Assembly: GCA_035570235.1 (NCBI GenBank)
Contig: DATMML010000019.1
Coordinates: forward strand, 1-40,451
Direction: 5' to 3'
Source: Vicinamibacteria bacterium
GTDB lineage: Bacteria > Acidobacteriota > Vicinamibacteria > Fen-336
Length of the DNA: 40,451 nucleotides
Part shown: piece after piece, positions 7,121 to 34,816 of the stretch
Layout of the letters: every line of letters begins with the position of its first letter
How positions within the stretch are numbered: the first letter of the stretch is position 1
Position numbers and translations under genes: made by a program
The notes under the pieces: model-generated
The model's database searches: none
Seen by the model: only the letters and a program-made list of their open reading frames with translations
Told to the model about the DNA's origin: nothing

Positions 7121-8149
7121 GTGAAGCGGGAAGGGCACTTAAATCGACCGGGGGCAGGAGTACACACGGCGGATGAGGGGAGGTCAGGAGCCGTCCTGAC
7201 CGCCACTCCCCTCCGGGACGACCCCAACCAGGACCTGGGCCTCGGGAGCCGGGTCGCCCAGAAGAGCCGCCAGCGCTTCCTCAACCGGGACGGCAGCTTC
7301 AACGTCAGCCGCCGGGGGCTCTCCCCCCTCCGCTCCCTGAGCCTCTACCACTGGGTTTTGAACGTCACCTGGACGCGCTTCTTCCTGCTCATCGCCCTCG
7401 GCTACTTCGCGGTCAACGCGTTCTTCGCAACCGGCTATTACCTTTGCGGGCCGGGGGCCCTGCTGGGCAGCGCCGGCGGCTCCCCAGCGGAGCGCTTCGC
7501 GGAGGCGTTCTTCTTCAGCGTGCAGACCTTGGCCACCATCGGCTACGGCCGGATGAGCCCGAGCGGGGTCCCCGCCAACCTGCTCGTGACTTTCGAGGCC
7601 CTGTTCGGGCTCATGGGCTTCGCCCTCGCCACCGGCCTCCTCTTCGCCCGCGTCTCCCGCCCCAGCGCGCAGATCCTCTTCAGCGAGAGCGCGGTGGTCG
7701 CCCCCTATCGCGACATCACCGCCTTCATGTTCCGGATCGTCAACGAGCGCAGCAACCAGCTCACCCAGGTGGAGGCCACGGTCAGCCTCGGCCTTTGGGA
7801 GCAGGTGGAGGGGGCGCCGGTCCGCAAATTCCACGAGCTGGCCCTGGAGCGCAAGCGGGTCGTGTTCATGCCCTTGCACTGGGTGATCGTTCACCCCATC
7901 AACGAGTCGAGCCCTCTCTACGGGATGAGCGCGCAGGAGTTCGCGGCCGCGGACGCCGAGGTCCTGATCCTGCTCACCGCGCTCGACGAGACCTTCTCCC
8001 AGACCGTGCATGCCCGCTCCTCCTACAAACCCCAAGAGGTGATCTGGGGGGCCAAGTTCGCCGACATGTTCCACGACTCGCCCGACGGCCGCGTCAGCAT
8101 CGACGTGGCAAAGCTCCACCTGGTCGAGAAGGTCATCGAGAAGGCCTAG
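7121..8149 (+). CDS. inward-rectifier-type potassium channel (KirBac family)
   Basis: 342 residues from a GTG preceded by ggagacggagg. A slide-helix region leads to the first membrane helix (WTRFFLLIALGYFAVNAFFATGYY, about 85-108), the pore helix and selectivity filter TIGYG (139-143) and a second membrane helix (LVTFEALFGLMGFALATGLLFA, about 155-176). The cytoplasmic immunoglobulin-like Kir domain fills the C-terminus, with motifs ILFSESAVVAPYRDITAF, FRIVNERSNQL, HPINESSPLYGMS and DETFSQTVHARSSY. The family forms tetramers in the inner membrane and conducts K+. The protein is full length. The first about 50 residues are poorly conserved in type and the true start could be slightly later. It may be co-transcribed with the ATP-grasp gene upstream. 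Confidence 0.95.
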   Translation: MKREGHLNRPGAGVHTADEGRSGAVLTATPLRDDPNQDLGLGSRVAQKSRQRFLNRDGSFNVSRRGLSPLRSLSLYHWVLNVTWTRFFLLIALGYFAVNAFFATGYYLCGPGALLGSAGGSPAERFAEAFFFSVQTLATIGYGRMSPSGVPANLLVTFEALFGLMGFALATGLLFARVSRPSAQILFSESAVVAPYRDITAFMFRIVNERSNQLTQVEATVSLGLWEQVEGAPVRKFHELALERKRVVFMPLHWVIVHPINESSPLYGMSAQEFAAADAEVLILLTALDETFSQTVHARSSYKPQEVIWGAKFADMFHDSPDGRVSIDVAKLHLVEKVIEKA

Positions 8150-8218
8150 CCCGGCCGCCCGCCGTGCCCTGGCGGCTTTCTCACACCGTGGCCCGGCCCA
8201 TGCCGAGCCGCTTGGCCC

Positions 8219-8980
8219 TCAACCAGCGAGACGCTCTCGCAACCAAGCGCTCAGAAGGTCGACCAGGGCGACGATGACGAGCATGGCAATGAGCACCGAG
8301 GCCGCTTCGCTCTGCTTGAAGAGGGACAGCGAGACGTAGAGCATCTGCCCCAGCCCGCCCGCTCCCACGAAGCCCAGCACGGTGGCCATGCGGATGTTGT
8401 TTTCCCAGCGATACAGCGTGTAGGAGCTGAACTGCGGCAGCGCCACGGGCAGGGTACCGTAGAGAAAGGAGGCTACCGCCGAGCCACCCGAGTCGCGCAA
8501 CGCGGCCGTGGGACCCGGCGGCGAGTTCTCCAGGGTCTCCGCAAACAGACGGCCCAGCACGCCCGTGGTGTGAACGGCAAGGGCCAGGGTCCCCGCGAAC
8601 GGCCCCACCCCTGCCGCCAGCACCATCAACACCGCCCACACCAGCTCTGGAATCGAGCGCAGCAAGTTGAGCCCAACGCGTGCCGGCCCCCGGGCCATCC
8701 GACCCAGTCGCCCCCCCGCGGGCAGGGCCGCGAGTACGCCGAAGACTGCCGCCAGAAGGGTGCCCACGGCGGAGATGGCCAGAGTCTGGAGGGAGCCCTT
8801 AAAGACCCTGGCCAAGAATGCCGGGGAGGTCTCGGGCGGAAAGAATGCGGCCACGAATTCCAGCATCCGGCGCTGCCCTTCGCCGCTCGTCAGCCCGGAG
8901 AGATCGAGACCGAGGTACGCGAAGCTCGCCACCGCCGCCGCACAGAGTCCGGCCAGCAGCAGCCAAGGCATGAAGTTCAT
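8219..8980 (-). CDS. phnE: ABC importer permease, PhnE type (second copy)
   Basis: 253 residues starting [11 protein letters not shown]; the ATG at 8980 overlaps the stop of the upstream permease by 4 bases (ATGA). Several membrane helices are evident, and the cytoplasmic coupling loop carries the family signature (ALRDSGGSAVASFLYGTLPVALPQFSSYTLYRWENNIR, then [23 protein letters not shown]). It matches the PhnE/PtxC group of permeases for phosphonate, phosphite and related oxyanions. It is last in the D-C-E-E operon. With the other permease it would form a heterodimeric channel. A longer open frame runs upstream to 9727 but is antisense/out of frame to the first permease and is not part of the protein. 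Confidence 0.9.
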   Translation of the reverse strand: MNFMPWLLLAGLCAAAVASFAYLGLDLSGLTSGEGQRRMLEFVAAFFPPETSPAFLARVFKGSLQTLAISAVGTLLAAVFGVLAALPAGGRLGRMARGPARVGLNLLRSIPELVWAVLMVLAAGVGPFAGTLALAVHTTGVLGRLFAETLENSPPGPTAALRDSGGSAVASFLYGTLPVALPQFSSYTLYRWENNIRMATVLGFVGAGGLGQMLYVSLSLFKQSEAASVLIAMLVIVALVDLLSAWLRERLAG

Positions 8981-28997: not shown

Positions 28998-29269
28998 TCC
29001 GACTCTTGGCCATTCTGTTCCGCTTCCTGATGGCCCTTCTCTTGGTGCGGCTGGGCATGCGGGCGCTCTCCTCCTGGCTCGGTCCCCGGGGGGCCGCTCC
29101 CGGGCCCGGGAAACCCCCGCCCCCCGAGGATCTGGTGCGGGACCGGATCTGCAACACCTTCCTGCCCCGGAGCCGCGCGCTGCGGGCGGTGGTGGGCGGG
29201 CACGAGGAGTATTTCTGCTCGGCCGCCTGCCGCGACCGGGCCCTCCTCGCCGTCTCCCAAGCCTCGTGA
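28994..29269 (+). CDS. small membrane protein with zinc-ribbon-like motif (PP0621-like)
   Basis: 91 residues from TTG 28994, whose start overlaps the preceding stop (TTGA). A membrane helix (IRLLAILFRFLMALLLVRLGMRAL) and a Pro/Gly linker precede VRDRICNTFLPRSRALRAVVGGHEEYFCSAACRDRALL. The single Cys of RICNTFLP, then FCSAAC, with an intervening His, matches the zinc-ribbon/TRASH-like layout of the PP0621 group of small bacterial proteins, whose function is unknown. One Cys of the usual first CxxC pair is replaced (DRIC), so metal binding is uncertain. Its TGA overlaps the GTG of the aldolase (GTGA). Confidence 0.75.
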   Translation: MIRLLAILFRFLMALLLVRLGMRALSSWLGPRGAAPGPGKPPPPEDLVRDRICNTFLPRSRALRAVVGGHEEYFCSAACRDRALLAVSQAS

Positions 29270-30033
29270 GCGAGGGGGCGCGCATCCGGGCCGAGATCGT
29301 GGAGGTGGGGCGCCGGCTCTATGCGCGGGGGCTGATCTCGGGCAACGAGGGGAACATCTCCGTCCGCGAGGGGGACCATCTCTTCATCACCCCCGCCGGC
29401 GCCTGCAAGGGCTTCCTCACCCCCGAGGCCATCGTGCGGACCGACCTCGAGGGGCGGGCCGAGGGCAGAGGCCGCGCCTCCACCGAGGTCCTGATGCACA
29501 CCGCCATCTACCGGCGCCGGGCCGACGCGGGAGCGGTGGTCCACGCCCACCCCCCGACCGCCACCGGCTTTGCGGTGGCGGGGATCCCCCTGGACCGCCC
29601 CCTGATCGCGGAGGCGGTCGTGACCCTGGGTCCGGTGCGGGTGATCCCCTACGCCACCCCCTCCACCCCGGAGCTGGCCGACAACGTGGGCCGGGCGGCC
29701 TGCGAGGGCCACGGCTTGCTCCTCGCCAACCACGGGGCGCTCACGGTGGGGGAGCACGTGTTCCGGGCCTGGGAGCGGATGGAGACCCTGGAGCAGCTGG
29801 CGCGGGTGGCCCTGGTGGCGCGCACCCTAGGCCAAGACAACCTGCTCCCCCCCGCCGACGTGGAGCGGCTGCGGGACCTTCGGGTGGCGGCCGGCTACCC
29901 GCCGCCCTCCTGCGTGGACTGCCCGTCCTGCGGCCACCCCGTGCCGGTGGGCACCGGCGAGAGCGTGGTCCTGTCGCGGGAGGCCCTGGTGCGGCTGGTG
30001 GCGGAGGCGGTGGAACGGTTCGCGGGCGCTTGA
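29266..30033 (+). CDS. class II aldolase with Cys-rich linker and C-terminal helix, likely microcompartment cargo
   Basis: 255 residues from GTG, overlapping the previous stop (GTGA). The fuculose/rhamnulose-phosphate aldolase fold is shown by SGNEGNISVREGDHLFITPAGACKGFL, the catalytic Glu74 (STEVLMHTAIYRRR) and the zinc ligands His93 and His95 (VVHAHPPTA) and His156 (LLANHGALTVG). Such enzymes split a sugar phosphate into dihydroxyacetone phosphate and an aldehyde, the aldehyde being what some microcompartments contain. After the normal core (about 210) comes PSCVDCPSCGHPVPV (Cys216, 219, 222 and His224, a possible metal knuckle). It ends with an amphipathic helix SREALVRLVAEAVERF (238-253) of the type used as encapsulation peptides. 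The substrate is unproven. Confidence 0.9.
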   Translation: MSEGARIRAEIVEVGRRLYARGLISGNEGNISVREGDHLFITPAGACKGFLTPEAIVRTDLEGRAEGRGRASTEVLMHTAIYRRRADAGAVVHAHPPTATGFAVAGIPLDRPLIAEAVVTLGPVRVIPYATPSTPELADNVGRAACEGHGLLLANHGALTVGEHVFRAWERMETLEQLARVALVARTLGQDNLLPPADVERLRDLRVAAGYPPPSCVDCPSCGHPVPVGTGESVVLSREALVRLVAEAVERFAGA

Positions 30034-30082: not shown

Positions 30083-30367
30083 ATGGGTGAAGCGCTGGGG
30101 ATGATCGAGACGCGGGGCTTGGTGGCCATGATCGAGGCCGCCGACGCCATGGTGAAAGCGGCCAAGGTCACCCTCGTGGGCTACGAGAAGATCGGATCGG
30201 GATACGTCACCGCCCTCGTCCGCGGGGACGTGGCCGCGGTGAAGGCCGCCACCGACGCGGGGGCGGCGGCCGCCCGGCGGGTGGGCGAGCTCGTCTCCGT
30301 GCACGTGATCCCCCGGCCCCACACCAACCTGGAAGACGTCCTCCCCATCGGCAAGGCCGCCAAGTAA
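30083..30367 (+). CDS. BMC-H hexameric microcompartment shell protein
   Basis: 94 residues, the standard single-domain size; ATG preceded by ggggaggcagc. The BMC fold is unmistakable: [79 protein letters not shown]. The edge Lys and the GSG pore loop (EKIGSGYV) are in place. Hexamers tile the facets of polyhedral protein organelles and pass small substrates through the central pore. This is the only BMC-H gene in the window and no BMC-T is present, so if the locus is complete the shell would be made from one facet tile type. Confidence 0.97.
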
Positions 30368-30382: not shown

Positions 30383-30652
30383 ATGATTCTGGCCCGGGTC
30401 GTCGGCACCGTCGTCGCCACGAGGAAGGACGAGCGCCTCTTGGGGGCGAAGCTTCTGGTGGTGCGTGCCCAAGACCCGCACGGCAAGGACGAAGCATCGT
30501 ACCTGGTGGCGGTGGACACCGTGGACGCGGGCTTTAGGGACCGGGTCCTGATCGTGACTGGCTCCTCCGCCCGCATGGCCTCCGGCCTCAAGGACTGCCC
30601 CGTGGACGCCGCCATCGTGGGGGTGGTGGACGCGGTCGAGGTCAAGGAGTAG
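30383..30652 (+). CDS. BMC-P pentameric vertex protein (EutN/CcmL family), copy 1
   Basis: 89 residues; ggaggcccggc precedes the ATG. The EutN/CcmL beta-barrel reads MILARVVGTVVATRKDERLLGAKLLVVRAQDPHGKDEASYLVAVDTVDAGFRDRVLIVTGSSARMA and ends in DAAIVGVVDAVEV. Pentamers of this family close the twelve vertices of the shell. It begins 15 bases after the hexamer gene. Confidence 0.96.
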   Translation: MILARVVGTVVATRKDERLLGAKLLVVRAQDPHGKDEASYLVAVDTVDAGFRDRVLIVTGSSARMASGLKDCPVDAAIVGVVDAVEVKE

Positions 30653-30659
30653 CGCGCGC

Positions 30660-30926
30660 ATGTTCCTGGCCCGGGTTGTGGGCACGGTGGTGGCCAGCCG
30701 CAAAGACGAGGGCCTCCTCGGCACCAAACTGCTCGTGATCCAGCCCCTGCGCCCCGACCGCGCGGTCGCGGGCCCGCCCCTGGTGGCGGTGGACTCCGTG
30801 GGGGCGGGGGTCAGCGAGGAGGTCTTCTACGTGCGCGGCCGCGAGGCCTCCTTCCCCTTCCTGCCCGCGGAGGTCCCCACCGACGCCGCCATCATCGGCA
30901 TCGTGGACCATTGGAACGTGGGCTGA
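30660..30926 (+). CDS. BMC-P pentameric vertex protein, copy 2
   Basis: 88 residues; the ribosome site (caaggag) overlaps the stop of copy 1. It opens FLARVVGTVVASRKDEGLLGTKLLVIQPLRPDRAVAGPPLVAVDSVGAGVSEEVFYVRGREASFPF and ends AAIIGIVDHWNVG. Loops after strand 3 and the segment FPFLPAEVP differ from copies 1 and 3, so it is a distinct paralogue, not a recent duplicate. A specialised vertex, or a mixed pentamer, is possible. Confidence 0.95.
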   Translation: MFLARVVGTVVASRKDEGLLGTKLLVIQPLRPDRAVAGPPLVAVDSVGAGVSEEVFYVRGREASFPFLPAEVPTDAAIIGIVDHWNVG

Positions 30927-30927
30927 C

Positions 30928-31200
30928 ATGCTCATCGCCCGGGTGTTGGGGAACGTGGTCTCGACCCAGAAGAACGGCAAGCTCGAGGGCTCCAAGCTGC
31001 TGCTCGTGCAGCCGCTCGACCTCGAAGGCCAGCCCCGCGGGACCCCCGTGCTGGCCATCGATGGGGTGGACGCCGGCCCCGGGGATCGTGTTCTCCTCGT
31101 GCAGGAGGGCCGGGCGGCGCAGCTCGTGCTCGGCCAGGGCACCGCCCCGGTGGACGCGGCCGTGGTCGGGGTCGTGGACACGGTGGAGCACCTGGACTAG
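30928..31200 (+). CDS. BMC-P pentameric vertex protein, copy 3
   Basis: 90 residues, starting 1 base after the stop of copy 2. It reads MLIARVLGNVVSTQKNGKLEGSKLLLVQPLDLEGQPRGTPVLAIDGVDAGPGDRVLLVQEGRAAQLVLG and ends in DAAVVGVVDTVEHLD. Sequence divergence from copies 1 and 2 is spread along the chain. Three different BMC-P genes beside a class II aldolase recall the planctomycete/verrucomicrobial-type and Haliangium microcompartment loci. Confidence 0.95.
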   Translation: MLIARVLGNVVSTQKNGKLEGSKLLLVQPLDLEGQPRGTPVLAIDGVDAGPGDRVLLVQEGRAAQLVLGQGTAPVDAAVVGVVDTVEHLD

Positions 31201-31203
31201 GCC

Positions 31204-31479
31204 ATGGACGACGAACGCATCCGACAACTCGCGGAGGAGGTGCTCCTCGACGTCCGGGGCGCGGTGCCCGGGCCGGGAGATGCCCCCAGCCTGGAGGCCC
31301 GGGTGGCGGCCTTGGAGGCGGCGGTGCGCGAGGGGGGAGCCGGCCGCGCGGCCGTGGTCGTGGCCCTGGTTCACCCCAGCCACTCCCTCCTCGGCGTCTC
31401 CGCCGGTGGGGACCGGTGCGTGATGGAGCCGGACAAACCCTGCGTGCAGAGCGGCATGTGCCGGACCCTCGGCCACTAG
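31204..31479 (+). CDS. small microcompartment-associated protein with helical N-terminus and Cys-rich tail
   Basis: 91 residues; ATG three bases after the previous stop. It starts with an amphipathic helix, DDERIRQLAEEVLLDVRG, resembling N-terminal encapsulation peptides, followed by a Gly/Pro linker (AVPGPGDAP) and a second helix, LEARVAALEAAVRE. After a hydrophobic strand AAVVVALVHPSHSLLGVSAGG comes the tail RCVMEPDKPCVQSGMCRTLGH, with three Cys and a terminal His that could bind a metal or cluster. I do not recognise a family. Position directly behind the shell genes and the N-terminal helix suggest a cargo or assembly factor; this is inference. Its end overlaps the dinB start. Confidence 0.75.
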   Translation: MDDERIRQLAEEVLLDVRGAVPGPGDAPSLEARVAALEAAVREGGAGRAAVVVALVHPSHSLLGVSAGGDRCVMEPDKPCVQSGMCRTLGH

Positions 31480-32681
31480 AGAAGCTCCCCCGCACCATCC
31501 TCCACGTCGACATGGACGCGTTCTATGCCGCGGTGGAGCAGCGGGACCGCCCCGAGCTGCGGGGGTTGCCCGTCATCGTGGGGGCCGACCCCATGGGAGG
31601 TCGGGGTCGCGGGGTCGTGTCCACCGCCTCCTACGAGGCGCGGCCCTTCGGGGTCGCGAGCGCCATGCCCATCTCCCAGGCCTACCGTCTCTGCCCCCGG
31701 GGCGTCTACCTTCCCGTAGACATGGAGAAGTACGCGCGCGTTTCCACAGAGATCATGGAGGTCCTCCGCCGATTCACGGATTGCGTGGAGCCGATCTCCA
31801 TCGACGAGGCCTTCCTGGATGTGAGCCAGAGCCGGCGCGCCCTGGGCCCGGGGGAGGAGATCGCGCGCAAGCTCAAGGACGCGGTGCGACGGGAGACGGA
31901 GCTGACCGCGTCGGTGGGGGTGGCCTCCTCCAAGCTCGTGGCCAAGATCGCCTCCGACATGAGAAAGCCGGACGGCCTGGTGGTCGTGCCCCCCGCCCGA
32001 GAGGCGGAGTTCCTGGCCCCCCTCCCCGTCCGCAAGCTCTGGGGGGTTGGCCCCAAGATGGAGGAGCAGCTGCAGAAGGTGGGTATCGTCACCATCGGGG
32101 ACCTTGCCGCCGCCGAAGCCCGCCTCTTGCAGCGGCGCCTGGGCACGCACGGCCACGACCTGCGCCTGCTGGCCCGGGGGATTGACGACCGCCCGGTGGT
32201 GGCTGACCCGGGCGAGGCCAAGAGTCTCGGCCAGGAGCACACCTTCGCCACCGACACCGCCGACCGTGAGGTCCTGCGGCGGACCCTCCTGGACCTGGCC
32301 GACGGCGTGGCCCGGCGGCTGCGGGGCCAGGGACTCCGCGGACGGACCCTCACCCTCAAGTACCGAGATGAGACCTTCCGGACCCTGACCCGGGCGGAAA
32401 CGCTGGCCGAACCGACTGATTCGGGAAACGAGCTCTTCCGGGTGATCCGCCGGCTCTTCGATGGTGTCCACGGCTCCCGCAAGGTGCGCCTGCTCGGAGT
32501 CTACGCCTCCGGGTTCGGGGGCACCGCCTCCCAGCTCGACCTCTTCGCGCCGCCCGTTCTCCCCTCCGCCGCCGACCAGATCCGCGACCGCGTGGCCAAC
32601 CGCTTCGGGGAGGGGACCCTCACCCGGGCCAGCCTGCTCCGCCCGAGCCCGCCCCTGCCCAAGCCGCCCCGCGGGCGCTGA
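31458..32681 (+). CDS. dinB: DNA polymerase IV (Y family)
   Basis: About 407 residues from the GTG at 31458, which overlaps the preceding gene by 22 bases; the GTG at 31416 is a possible longer start. The metal-binding palm motifs are ILHVDMDAFYAAVEQRD and EPISIDEAFLDVSQS, with the steric-gate Tyr/Phe after DMDAF. The fingers (VVSTASYEARPFGVASAMPISQAYRLCP), the helix-hairpin-helix thumb (LWGVGPKMEEQLQKVGIVTIGDLA) and the little-finger domain are complete. QLDLF near the C-terminus is a clamp-binding motif, followed by a longer tail than usual. The enzyme copies damaged DNA with low fidelity. It looks like a bystander that shares the microcompartment transcript. Confidence 0.95.
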   Translation: MPDPRPLEKLPRTILHVDMDAFYAAVEQRDRPELRGLPVIVGADPMGGRGRGVVSTASYEARPFGVASAMPISQAYRLCPRGVYLPVDMEKYARVSTEIMEVLRRFTDCVEPISIDEAFLDVSQSRRALGPGEEIARKLKDAVRRETELTASVGVASSKLVAKIASDMRKPDGLVVVPPAREAEFLAPLPVRKLWGVGPKMEEQLQKVGIVTIGDLAAAEARLLQRRLGTHGHDLRLLARGIDDRPVVADPGEAKSLGQEHTFATDTADREVLRRTLLDLADGVARRLRGQGLRGRTLTLKYRDETFRTLTRAETLAEPTDSGNELFRVIRRLFDGVHGSRKVRLLGVYASGFGGTASQLDLFAPPVLPSAADQIRDRVANRFGEGTLTRASLLRPSPPLPKPPRGR

Positions 32682-32737: not shown

Positions 32738-34459
32738 TCAGGCGGTCACCGCGGTTCCATCGAACCTTGTGATCCTGAAGCCTGAGAACGTCTCGCCGTA
32801 GACCTCCTTTTGATCCCGGAGGATGCTCAGGGCGATGGCTTCTCCGAGTTTCAGACCATCAGAGTAGTCGGTTCGCCAGTGAACGCCCGCATGGTTGCGG
32901 GCAACTCCGACATTGGAGGCGAGTTTGTTGATTTCGCCGGTGACGTTGATCTGGTTCGCATCCGAACCCGCGTACGGAACCAGAGAGAGGCCGTCCTCGC
33001 TGGCCATCTGGATGGTGCCGCCGGTCAGGGTGTTGAATTGGACGTCCCCGTCTATTGCCACTTTCAGAATGGTTGCGCAGGCACCCGCGACAGAGCCATG
33101 GCCCTGTGCGTAGGAGGGATGCTGCGGGCATCCTTCCGGATAAGCCTGGGCAAGAAAGTACGTGCCGTACTGCGCGAGGGTCCGGGCAAGCGCGTTCGAT
33201 TTGAGCACGTCGGTGTGTAGTGGATAGCTGGCCTGGCCGGTCTTATGGACGTGCACGAGCCCACCGTAGTCTTCCGGCCTTAGAGTGCGGTGCACAAACC
33301 ACTTCGCGTACCACACCGCCTTGAGCGCGCGGTTTGCGGCTTCGGCCAGCAGGGTCAAGAAATGGGGCCCGCCAAAGGTCGCAAAGGACGACTGCTTCGA
33401 AAGGCCCGAGTAGGGATTGCCCAGGTTCGCGGGCGCCCCGTGGGTGAAGAGCCAAATTCCGGCGTTGTAGAACGCCTCGAAAACCTGGTCGGCGTGAACA
33501 TACGCACTCAGATCACGCCCGTTCCGAATGTACCGGAGATCGGGATCGTTCTGGTTTTTGGCGAATGGTCCCTGGCCGTTGCGTGCCGCTAGCCACGCCG
33601 CCTGGGTAGTTAAGTAGTCTATTCCCGGAAGATAAGTCGTGATCTGCCCCCTGATGGGGATTTGCCCATAGTTAAAGGGCTTCAGGAGGAATTGTGAGAC
33701 ATAGGGCCCAATCACGTCGTCCCCAGTAAAACCCCGGAAAAGCGACTGCGCGGTGACGTCGCCGCCAGATCTCGGCCCCGCGAAGGCAGCAAGAGAGGAC
33801 AGCTCGGCAGAGGCTGCCTGCGCCGTTGGATCACTGCCGTAATCGGTGAAATTCACGTCCCGACACAGGGCCATCCAGTAGAGTTCCACCATATCGTCGG
33901 CACGGGTCTGGCTGGCGACGGCGGGCGGGGGTCCGATGGCTAGTTGGTGGGAGTCCGTCCCTTCCAAGTCGAAGGCCAGGCCGGCCATAGGATTTACAAG
34001 CTTGACGTTTCCACCGAGGGGAACCTTCTCAAAGGCAGCCGCCGTACCATCGCCCGCCGCATCGAGGAGCTGCTCATAGGATTCCCGGTCTACTTCGCCG
34101 ATCGAGTTGTGGGGCAATCCCTTGGAAAAATTCCCTAGGAAGTTGCGATAGCGCTTTTCATCTCCGTTTGGAACCTGGGGGGGAATCGGAAGTTCCCGTT
34201 CTTCCTCTGCGGCGCGCTCCCGAACCTCAAAGGATTCTCGGGCGCGCTCGTCCCCCCCCCGCGTCCTTTCTTGGGCGCCGACTGGTCTCGTTAAGGGGCC
34301 CAGTTCTACTGCGCTCGCGGCAAGAGTGGCCGCGGCCGCTCCCCGGATCTGGCCCAGAAACGCACGCCGGCTGGAGCCCGCGCAAGACTCAGCGGTGGAG
34401 ACTTGGCCTTGATTCTTCGCGGCCCCGTTTCCGATTCTGAGATTGCTTGTCTTGTCCAT
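32738..34459 (-). CDS. Tat-exported vanadium-dependent haloperoxidase-family protein
   Basis: 573 residues from the ATG at 34459 with aaggag 9 bases upstream. A twin-arginine signal (SSRRAFLGQIRGAAAATLAAS, about 30-50) exports it. The vanadate-binding motifs of the haloperoxidase/PAP2 fold are in the C-terminal third: KWFVHRTLRPEDYGG, PQHPSYAQGHGSVAGACATIL and VARNHAGVHWRTDYSDGLKLGEAIA. These hold the Lys/Arg/Ser/His/Arg/His set expected of the site. Members oxidise halides with H2O2, or act as acid phosphatases; sequence alone does not decide. A long N-terminal helical domain of about 300 residues precedes the motifs. No neighbouring halogenation gene is seen. Confidence 0.9.
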   Translation of the reverse strand: MDKTSNLRIGNGAAKNQGQVSTAESCAGSSRRAFLGQIRGAAAATLAASAVELGPLTRPVGAQERTRGGDERARESFEVRERAAEEERELPIPPQVPNGDEKRYRNFLGNFSKGLPHNSIGEVDRESYEQLLDAAGDGTAAAFEKVPLGGNVKLVNPMAGLAFDLEGTDSHQLAIGPPPAVASQTRADDMVELYWMALCRDVNFTDYGSDPTAQAASAELSSLAAFAGPRSGGDVTAQSLFRGFTGDDVIGPYVSQFLLKPFNYGQIPIRGQITTYLPGIDYLTTQAAWLAARNGQGPFAKNQNDPDLRYIRNGRDLSAYVHADQVFEAFYNAGIWLFTHGAPANLGNPYSGLSKQSSFATFGGPHFLTLLAEAANRALKAVWYAKWFVHRTLRPEDYGGLVHVHKTGQASYPLHTDVLKSNALARTLAQYGTYFLAQAYPEGCPQHPSYAQGHGSVAGACATILKVAIDGDVQFNTLTGGTIQMASEDGLSLVPYAGSDANQINVTGEINKLASNVGVARNHAGVHWRTDYSDGLKLGEAIALSILRDQKEVYGETFSGFRITRFDGTAVTA

Positions 34460-34816
34460 GGAAGACGACTCCTTGAAAAGTGGAGGACCATCCCGCCGAG
34501 AGTGATTCATCGAGCCCTATCTGCGAGTGGGGTGGCCCCGCCAGCAACTCTCGACGACCTCGTTTCGCGCAGGAGTGTGACCGCATCGCCCGCCCCCGTC
34601 GGTGGCGTGCGTCACGTTCGGGTCCGAGAAGAGTCCGATGAGCCGCCCGGCAGGCTACCTTGAGGCCGGCCCGGCGCGGACCCGCCCCTCGTTTCCGCAC
34701 CGGCCGACCGCCCGTATCGTGGGGAGCTCCAGCGAGTGATACCCTTGGCGCGCTCCATGAGGTGGCTGGCGCTACGACCCGGGCGTCCCCCGGTCGCTCG
34801 TCCCCTGTCCGGAGAC
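34460..34816. other. gene-free stretch upstream of the haloperoxidase gene
   Basis: About 360 bases. Open frames cross it on both strands but none resembles a protein family, and none has a convincing ribosome site. The haloperoxidase promoter should be here on the minus strand; no good -35/-10 pair stood out. Confidence 0.35.

Follow-up and report, generated by a model that had tools for sequence, protein, structure and literature searches.

Organisation of the locus

The gene analysed here, ORF91, lies within a 40,451-nucleotide stretch of DNA from a Vicinamibacteria genome (the window). It is the last in a series of genes on one strand that encode, in this order, a class II aldolase, a BMC-H protein, three BMC-P proteins and ORF91 itself (Table 1). 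Only three bases separate its start from the stop codon of BMC-P gene 3, and its 3' end is overlapped by the longest dinB frame. Further downstream, at 32738-34510 on the minus strand, the window encodes a 589-residue protein showing no Pfam match at E 1e-5, which by eye resembles vanadium haloperoxidase/PAP2 proteins.

Table 1. Positions of the compartment genes, of ORF91 and its elements, and of the downstream neighbour in the window.
Feature	Position	Strand	Remarks
Class II aldolase (PF00596, 1.2e-47)	29266..30033	+	C-terminal encapsulation peptide (EP) ~29974-30030, tail SREALVRLVAEAVERFAGA; linker with CVDCPSCGHP
BMC-H shell hexamer protein	30083..30367	+	PF00936, 3e-31
BMC-P vertex protein 1	30383..30652	+	PF03319, 9e-29
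BMC-P vertex protein 2	30660..30926	+	PF03319, 5.8e-26
BMC-P vertex protein 3	30928..31200	+	PF03319, 4.5e-28
ORF91, 91-residue EP-like/Cys-tail protein	31204..31479	+	ATG start; no Pfam or NCBIfam family
ORF91 N-terminal EP-like helix, residues 3-18, DERIRQLAEEVLLDVR	31210..31257	+	AlphaFold helix; family similarity to aldolase EP
ORF91 middle helix, residues 30-43, LEARVAALEAAVRE	31291..31332	+	AlphaFold helix; heptad spacing
ORF91 HxS element, residues 57-60 (HPSH)	31372..31383	+	second conserved element, ahead of Cys tail
ORF91 Cys tail, residues 72-91, CVMEPDKPCVQSGMCRTLGH	31417..31476	+	invariant; ends the protein
dinB-type DNA polymerase IV (PF00817)	31416..32681	+	incidental neighbour; adjoins ORF91 only in two families

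The locus was compared with the ACI type of microcompartment locus as outlined in the main text of Sutter et al. 2021 (PMC8217296), and agrees with it in four out of five features. These are the class II aldolase (PF00596) with a C-terminal EP, the BMC-P triplet accompanied by at least one BMC-H, a satellite aldehyde dehydrogenase, and the occurrence in Acidobacteria, to which the host belongs. The satellite enzyme is of the acylating type and is encoded elsewhere in the host genome beside a second BMC-H gene (G000:C42, ~19.9-21.9 kb; locus L243); at its C-terminus, a linker rich in Pro leads to what may be an EP (LIDKVAAFVEGRLG). A hydroxyacid dehydrogenase (PF00389/PF02826), which sits behind ORF91 in many relatives, was not found in the window stretch searched. 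Paralogues of this enzyme with 42-43% identity are present in the host genome; the query for the own-genome enzyme was joined from two relatives (start from L054, rest from L049) and is fit for homology search only. As the stretch of the window that was searched has no such enzyme and the paralogues are only candidates for its counterpart, the locus is termed ‘ACI-like’.

With 125 loci, ACI is among the commonest compartment types of Acidobacteria, and its loci hold several proteins of unknown function, which appear in the main text without sequence, motif or function (PMC8217296). ORF91 is likely to be one of these unnamed families.

Two further observations concern the enzymes of such loci. 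The linkers that precede the aldolase EP hold Cys clusters: the window has CVDCPSCGHP, Blastocatellia-type loci have RCQACGYLH...C, and CQVVQAP is the form seen in most of the class. In two classes, pdxJ (pyridoxine phosphate synthase) is situated close to the compartment locus (L057, L194, L226 and about 30 other loci); since the loci also encode a dehydrogenase of the PdxB superfamily and an aldolase resembling OtnC, the substrate might conceivably be a tetronate or erythronate phosphate.

ORF91 represents a previously undescribed protein family

ORF91 is a real gene. The GC content at its three codon positions is 0.84/0.52/0.90, in line with the neighbours in the operon, and in a codon comparison with five family relatives dN/dS came to about 0.4-0.5 for the window protein and to 0.21 in the closest pair, while values between other relatives, the window protein included, were mostly 0.4-0.7. 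Codon-position GC and dN/dS thus identify a translated gene under constraint. A search of the 5.7-Mb host genome with the DNA pattern of the tail gave a single match, and the control gave none, so that the signal lies well beyond chance.

The protein returned no matches with Pfam and NCBIfam models, and no convincing known family emerged when 37 relatives were scanned individually. A PDB fold search was likewise without a match. The earlier note on this DNA had described an unrecognised small protein at this place, and this description holds, down to the letters given for the N-terminal helix and the C-terminal tail, which are exactly as first written. ORF91 constitutes a previously undescribed protein family, found across the Acidobacteriota.

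Single-sequence searching recovers only part of this family. Among 100 related genomes it returned 14 credible homologues (a fifteenth match was discarded as an unrelated frame), and a profile search of the same sample raised the count to 71 genomes. Since single-sequence scans of viral and genome collections showed no relatives, profiles are needed. In a class-wide profile search, ORF91 was present in 123 of 193 genomes, and in a phylum sample of 396 genomes the other classes of Acidobacteriota contributed members that were weaker though consistent. No member was found in a plasmid search, nor was the tail pattern in the viral contigs scanned for it. When 84,980 named species genomes were scanned for the pattern, 50 loci were confirmed, all labelled Acidobacteria bar a few Acidimicrobiia. 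One of the latter (L121, VFZH01000036.1) encodes a 70-residue protein identical to that of an acidobacterial genome of the same class (G046), and its Acidimicrobiia label is probably wrong; other Acidimicrobiia records of the same project (L125, L139, L153) are similar in look.

ORF91 accompanies BMC-P genes

Almost without exception the family is restricted to BMC loci, an association that the earlier note had proposed to test. In the 100-genome sample, ORF91 was detected in 71 of the 84 genomes with BMC-P, whereas the 16 genomes that lack BMC-P gave no credible match. In 69/81 sampled class loci, ORF91 is the next gene after BMC-P and has the same orientation, with a median of 244 bp from the BMC-P stop to the ORF91 stop, and this arrangement was also seen in 37/40 loci of other acidobacterial classes.

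Twelve class loci have no ORF91 behind BMC-P: two are cut by contig ends, with the remaining piece on another contig, four are other BMC types, and six are ACI-like loci of one family in which the gene is truly missing. The gene is therefore dispensable in some lineages. These six genomes (f8 family; L114, L116-L120) have otherwise complete loci, in most of which the dehydrogenase comes directly after BMC-P; a fusion of the Cys tail to another protein was looked for in them and none was seen. They provide a natural comparison set for the function of ORF91. In the other classes there are three exceptions. Two Blastocatellia-type genomes have ORF91 beside pdxJ, and their contigs carry the BMC-P triplet ~20-30 kb away. 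The third exception is a fragment at the end of a contig, and its genome has a second, normal copy.

The N-terminal helix and the middle region

AlphaFold models residues 3-20 of ORF91 as a helix, with a pLDDT of ~94-96 at the N-terminus (~94 over residues 1-10), which is followed by a low-confidence, probably flexible linker. This is the form of EPs, which are amphipathic helices of 15-20 residues on a flexible linker (PMC8217296).

The helix is also similar in sequence to the EP of the aldolase. Over 59 loci, the best 14-residue BLOSUM match between the aldolase EP and the ORF91 N-terminus had a mean score of 20.5; shuffled N-termini scored 10.4 (SD 4.6), and the ORF91 linker scored 5.1. The best-matching segment begins at residue 1 of ORF91 in 31/59 loci and the alignment is usually in register, e.g. 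LTYGELTALIADAV / MTEQELRALVREAV. The aldolase and ORF91 of the window give, as a single pair, a modest match (score 13), and the window helix by itself has an unremarkable hydrophobic moment (P 0.16); the EP claim consequently rests on the family. No within-locus covariation of aldolase EP and ORF91 helix was detected (permutation P 0.40, 59 loci), which is a point against the EP reading, although it would be expected of two helices that share one conserved target on the shell. The resemblance of the N-terminus to the aldolase tail, which the earlier note had pointed out, is thus upheld at family level and by a confidently modelled helix, and we infer from it that the N-terminus would be an encapsulation peptide binding to the shell.

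The Gly/Pro linker proposed to follow this helix exists, but the middle of the protein is not linker throughout. It also holds a second predicted helix, formed by residues 30-43 (pLDDT ~81), which has a Leu/Val heptad pattern and is kept as DLESRVxALExAV in the family of the window; from the model, a short coiled coil is possible. In most of the class this helix is replaced by a linker that is short and disordered. The HxS element is found in 103 of 138 distinct ORF91 members.

The cysteine tail

All 126 distinct tails conform to the pattern C-x7/8-C-...-C-x3-G-[H/F/Y/L]-COOH. Cys72, Cys80 and Cys86 (C1, C2 and C4) as well as Gly90 never vary, and Gly90 is always followed by exactly one more residue, the last of the protein, which is His in 87, Phe in 30, Tyr in 8 and Leu in 1. 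At or beside the position of Ser83 of the window protein, 109 of the tails carry an additional Cys (CxxCxxC); where this third Cys is absent (17/126), a fixed His does not compensate for it. Of 13 five-Cys members, 10 combine the extra Cys (CxCxGH) with an absent upstream His; these come mostly from one genus, and this is a hint only. The tail of a four-Cys member was modelled by AlphaFold with a pLDDT of 83-84, whereas the three-Cys tail of the window protein was modelled at low confidence.

Of the ‘three-Cys/His’ tail first proposed for the window protein, the three cysteines are therefore fully conserved, while the His is not. Most tails have a fourth Cys and many end in Phe or Tyr instead of His, so that the three-Cys/His set is, judged by the aligned tails, a local variant. 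A Cys3-His ligand set was rejected, given a last residue that may be H, F, Y or L and a His that does not reliably replace the missing Cys.

The core of the tail bears a local likeness to the structural-zinc lobe of MDR alcohol/ketose dehydrogenases, with its IEPxVxCxxCxYC motif (IEPAVxCxHCGYC / IEPGVPCGHCRYC; 5vm2, E 0.09; 1e3j, E 0.9), which extends over only 14-21 residues and is not significant (E 0.09-0.9). Unlike in these enzymes, the fourth Cys of ORF91 precedes the triad instead of following it, and there is no dehydrogenase domain. Most likely, the tail would form a small metal knuckle around one ion, with zinc likelier than an iron-sulfur cluster. Zinc is favoured by the likeness to the MDR zinc lobe, by the tolerated loss of one Cys and by a proposed chemistry that involves no electron carrier, each of these three arguments against an iron-sulfur cluster or a disulfide being weak.

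Longer members of the family

Some ORF91 members are longer (L202, ~8045-8749, minus strand; L209, L196, L212) and have, after the N-terminal helix and ahead of the Cys tail, a region resembling TIGR02536 (eut_hyp, an uncharacterised ethanolamine-utilization family). L202 matches this model over 155 residues (7e-10), and members of family f18 match it weakly (0.003-0.007). All scores are under the cut-off of 152.6 bits, the best relative attaining 38.9 bits. The window protein gave no match with TIGR02536. A PDB sequence search with the long member returned nothing. The short ORF91 proteins may have arisen by reduction from a longer protein of the lumen.

Discussion

In terms of its proposed action, the nearest functional analogue of ORF91 is CcmN, the adaptor of the beta-carboxysome, to which it shows no homology. 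Both are small and non-enzymatic and combine an encapsulation-type helix with a second docking region. In CcmN, the latter is a beta-helix domain, which binds CcmM. The EP of CcmN is C-terminal (PMC13370225), whereas the EP-like helix of ORF91 is N-terminal, and ORF91 differs further in its Cys tail, in having no Pfam match and in its mainly disordered AlphaFold model.

We see about an even chance that ORF91 is a lumenal, shell-tethered accessory of the ACI-like compartment, equipped with an EP helix and a metal-knuckle tail and acting as a shell-cargo tether or assembly adaptor, not as an enzyme. Small size and lack of an enzyme domain fit an accessory and not a catalyst. The N-terminal amphipathic helix would bind the inner face of the shell, as the C-terminal helix of the aldolase is thought to do, and the flexible linker, which includes the short helix in the family of the window, would give reach. 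The HxS element and the C-x7-C-x2-[C/S]-x2-C-x3-G-aromatic-COOH module would fold round one metal ion, and the resulting knuckle, with its exposed Gly-aromatic C-terminus, could dock an enzyme of the lumen or a vertex of the shell. One candidate client, the 2-hydroxyacid dehydrogenase encoded next to ORF91 in relatives, was rejected: an adaptor role would lead one to expect an EP of its own where ORF91 is missing, but the enzyme has none, whether ORF91 is in the locus or not. No other protein emerged as the partner.

The cysteines could serve other ends. A cluster-bearing redox module, in which the tail passes electrons inside or across the shell in the manner of the cluster-bearing shell protein PduT, seems unlikely to us; four Cys would serve as ligands in most members, whereas the window protein would supply three and take the last from outside. 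The spacing C-x7-C-x2-C-x2-C is compatible with a cluster, one member matches Fer4_2 (E 0.7) and one long member the EFR1 ferredoxin (E 0.0087), and there is a precedent in that cluster-bearing BMC accessory proteins exist (PMC6325248). However, the third Cys is lost in 17/126 tails with no fixed His in exchange (the last residue being H, Y or F), and the class consensus is nearer to the structural zinc lobe than to a ferredoxin motif. To our knowledge, neither the aldolase nor the acylating aldehyde dehydrogenase nor the hydroxyacid dehydrogenase needs an electron carrier of this kind by its established chemistry, which also speaks against such a module in these compartments. Alternatively, disulfides that join Cys of the tail to one another or to those in the aldolase linker might act as a redox latch that regulates cargo condensation or shell closure during assembly. 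Conserved Cys in the aldolase linkers are in keeping with this; yet their number and spacing do not, by eye, track the ORF91 tail, and the bacterial cytosol is reducing, so that we rate a latch as distinctly improbable.

Gene order invites a different explanation. The near-invariant place directly behind the BMC-P triplet in several classes would be accounted for if ORF91 acted on BMC-P pentamers as a vertex or shell-assembly factor with no role for cargo. Gene order alone, however, cannot tell shell partners from cargo partners, and EP-like helices normally bind BMC-H or BMC-T faces; we give this explanation no better prospects than the latch. That ORF91 is a coincidentally conserved neighbour with no microcompartment role, linked for instance to dinB, is scarcely credible. 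It is true that dinB comes after ORF91 in the window and a few relatives, but it follows directly only in the family of the window and one other, and lies some distance away in a few loci, whereas adjacency to BMC-P is nearly universal and all 16 sampled genomes free of BMC-P are free of ORF91. A true association with dinB, an outcome the earlier note had said would count against its reading, was rejected on these grounds.

Within the reading of ORF91 as a shell-tethered accessory, a more specific form can be put forward tentatively, although we would lean against it at present. ORF91 may be a phylum-specific, metal-dependent cargo-to-shell tether that docks by its free C-terminus of Gly plus His, Phe or Tyr, and may descend from a longer, TIGR02536-like lumen protein by loss of the core domain. 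If true, this would be a tether of a kind not described for any other microcompartment.

Acidobacteria can form a large share of soil bacteria, and both the substrate and the assembly route of the ACI compartment are not known. The ORF91 family is nearly universal in ACI-like loci, can be recognised by its C-terminal C..EP...C..[CS]..C...G[HFY] and is small enough for direct tests. It offers a marker gene for the locus and a potential native encapsulation tag; should metal binding by the tail be true, it would also represent a new way to fix cargo to the shell.
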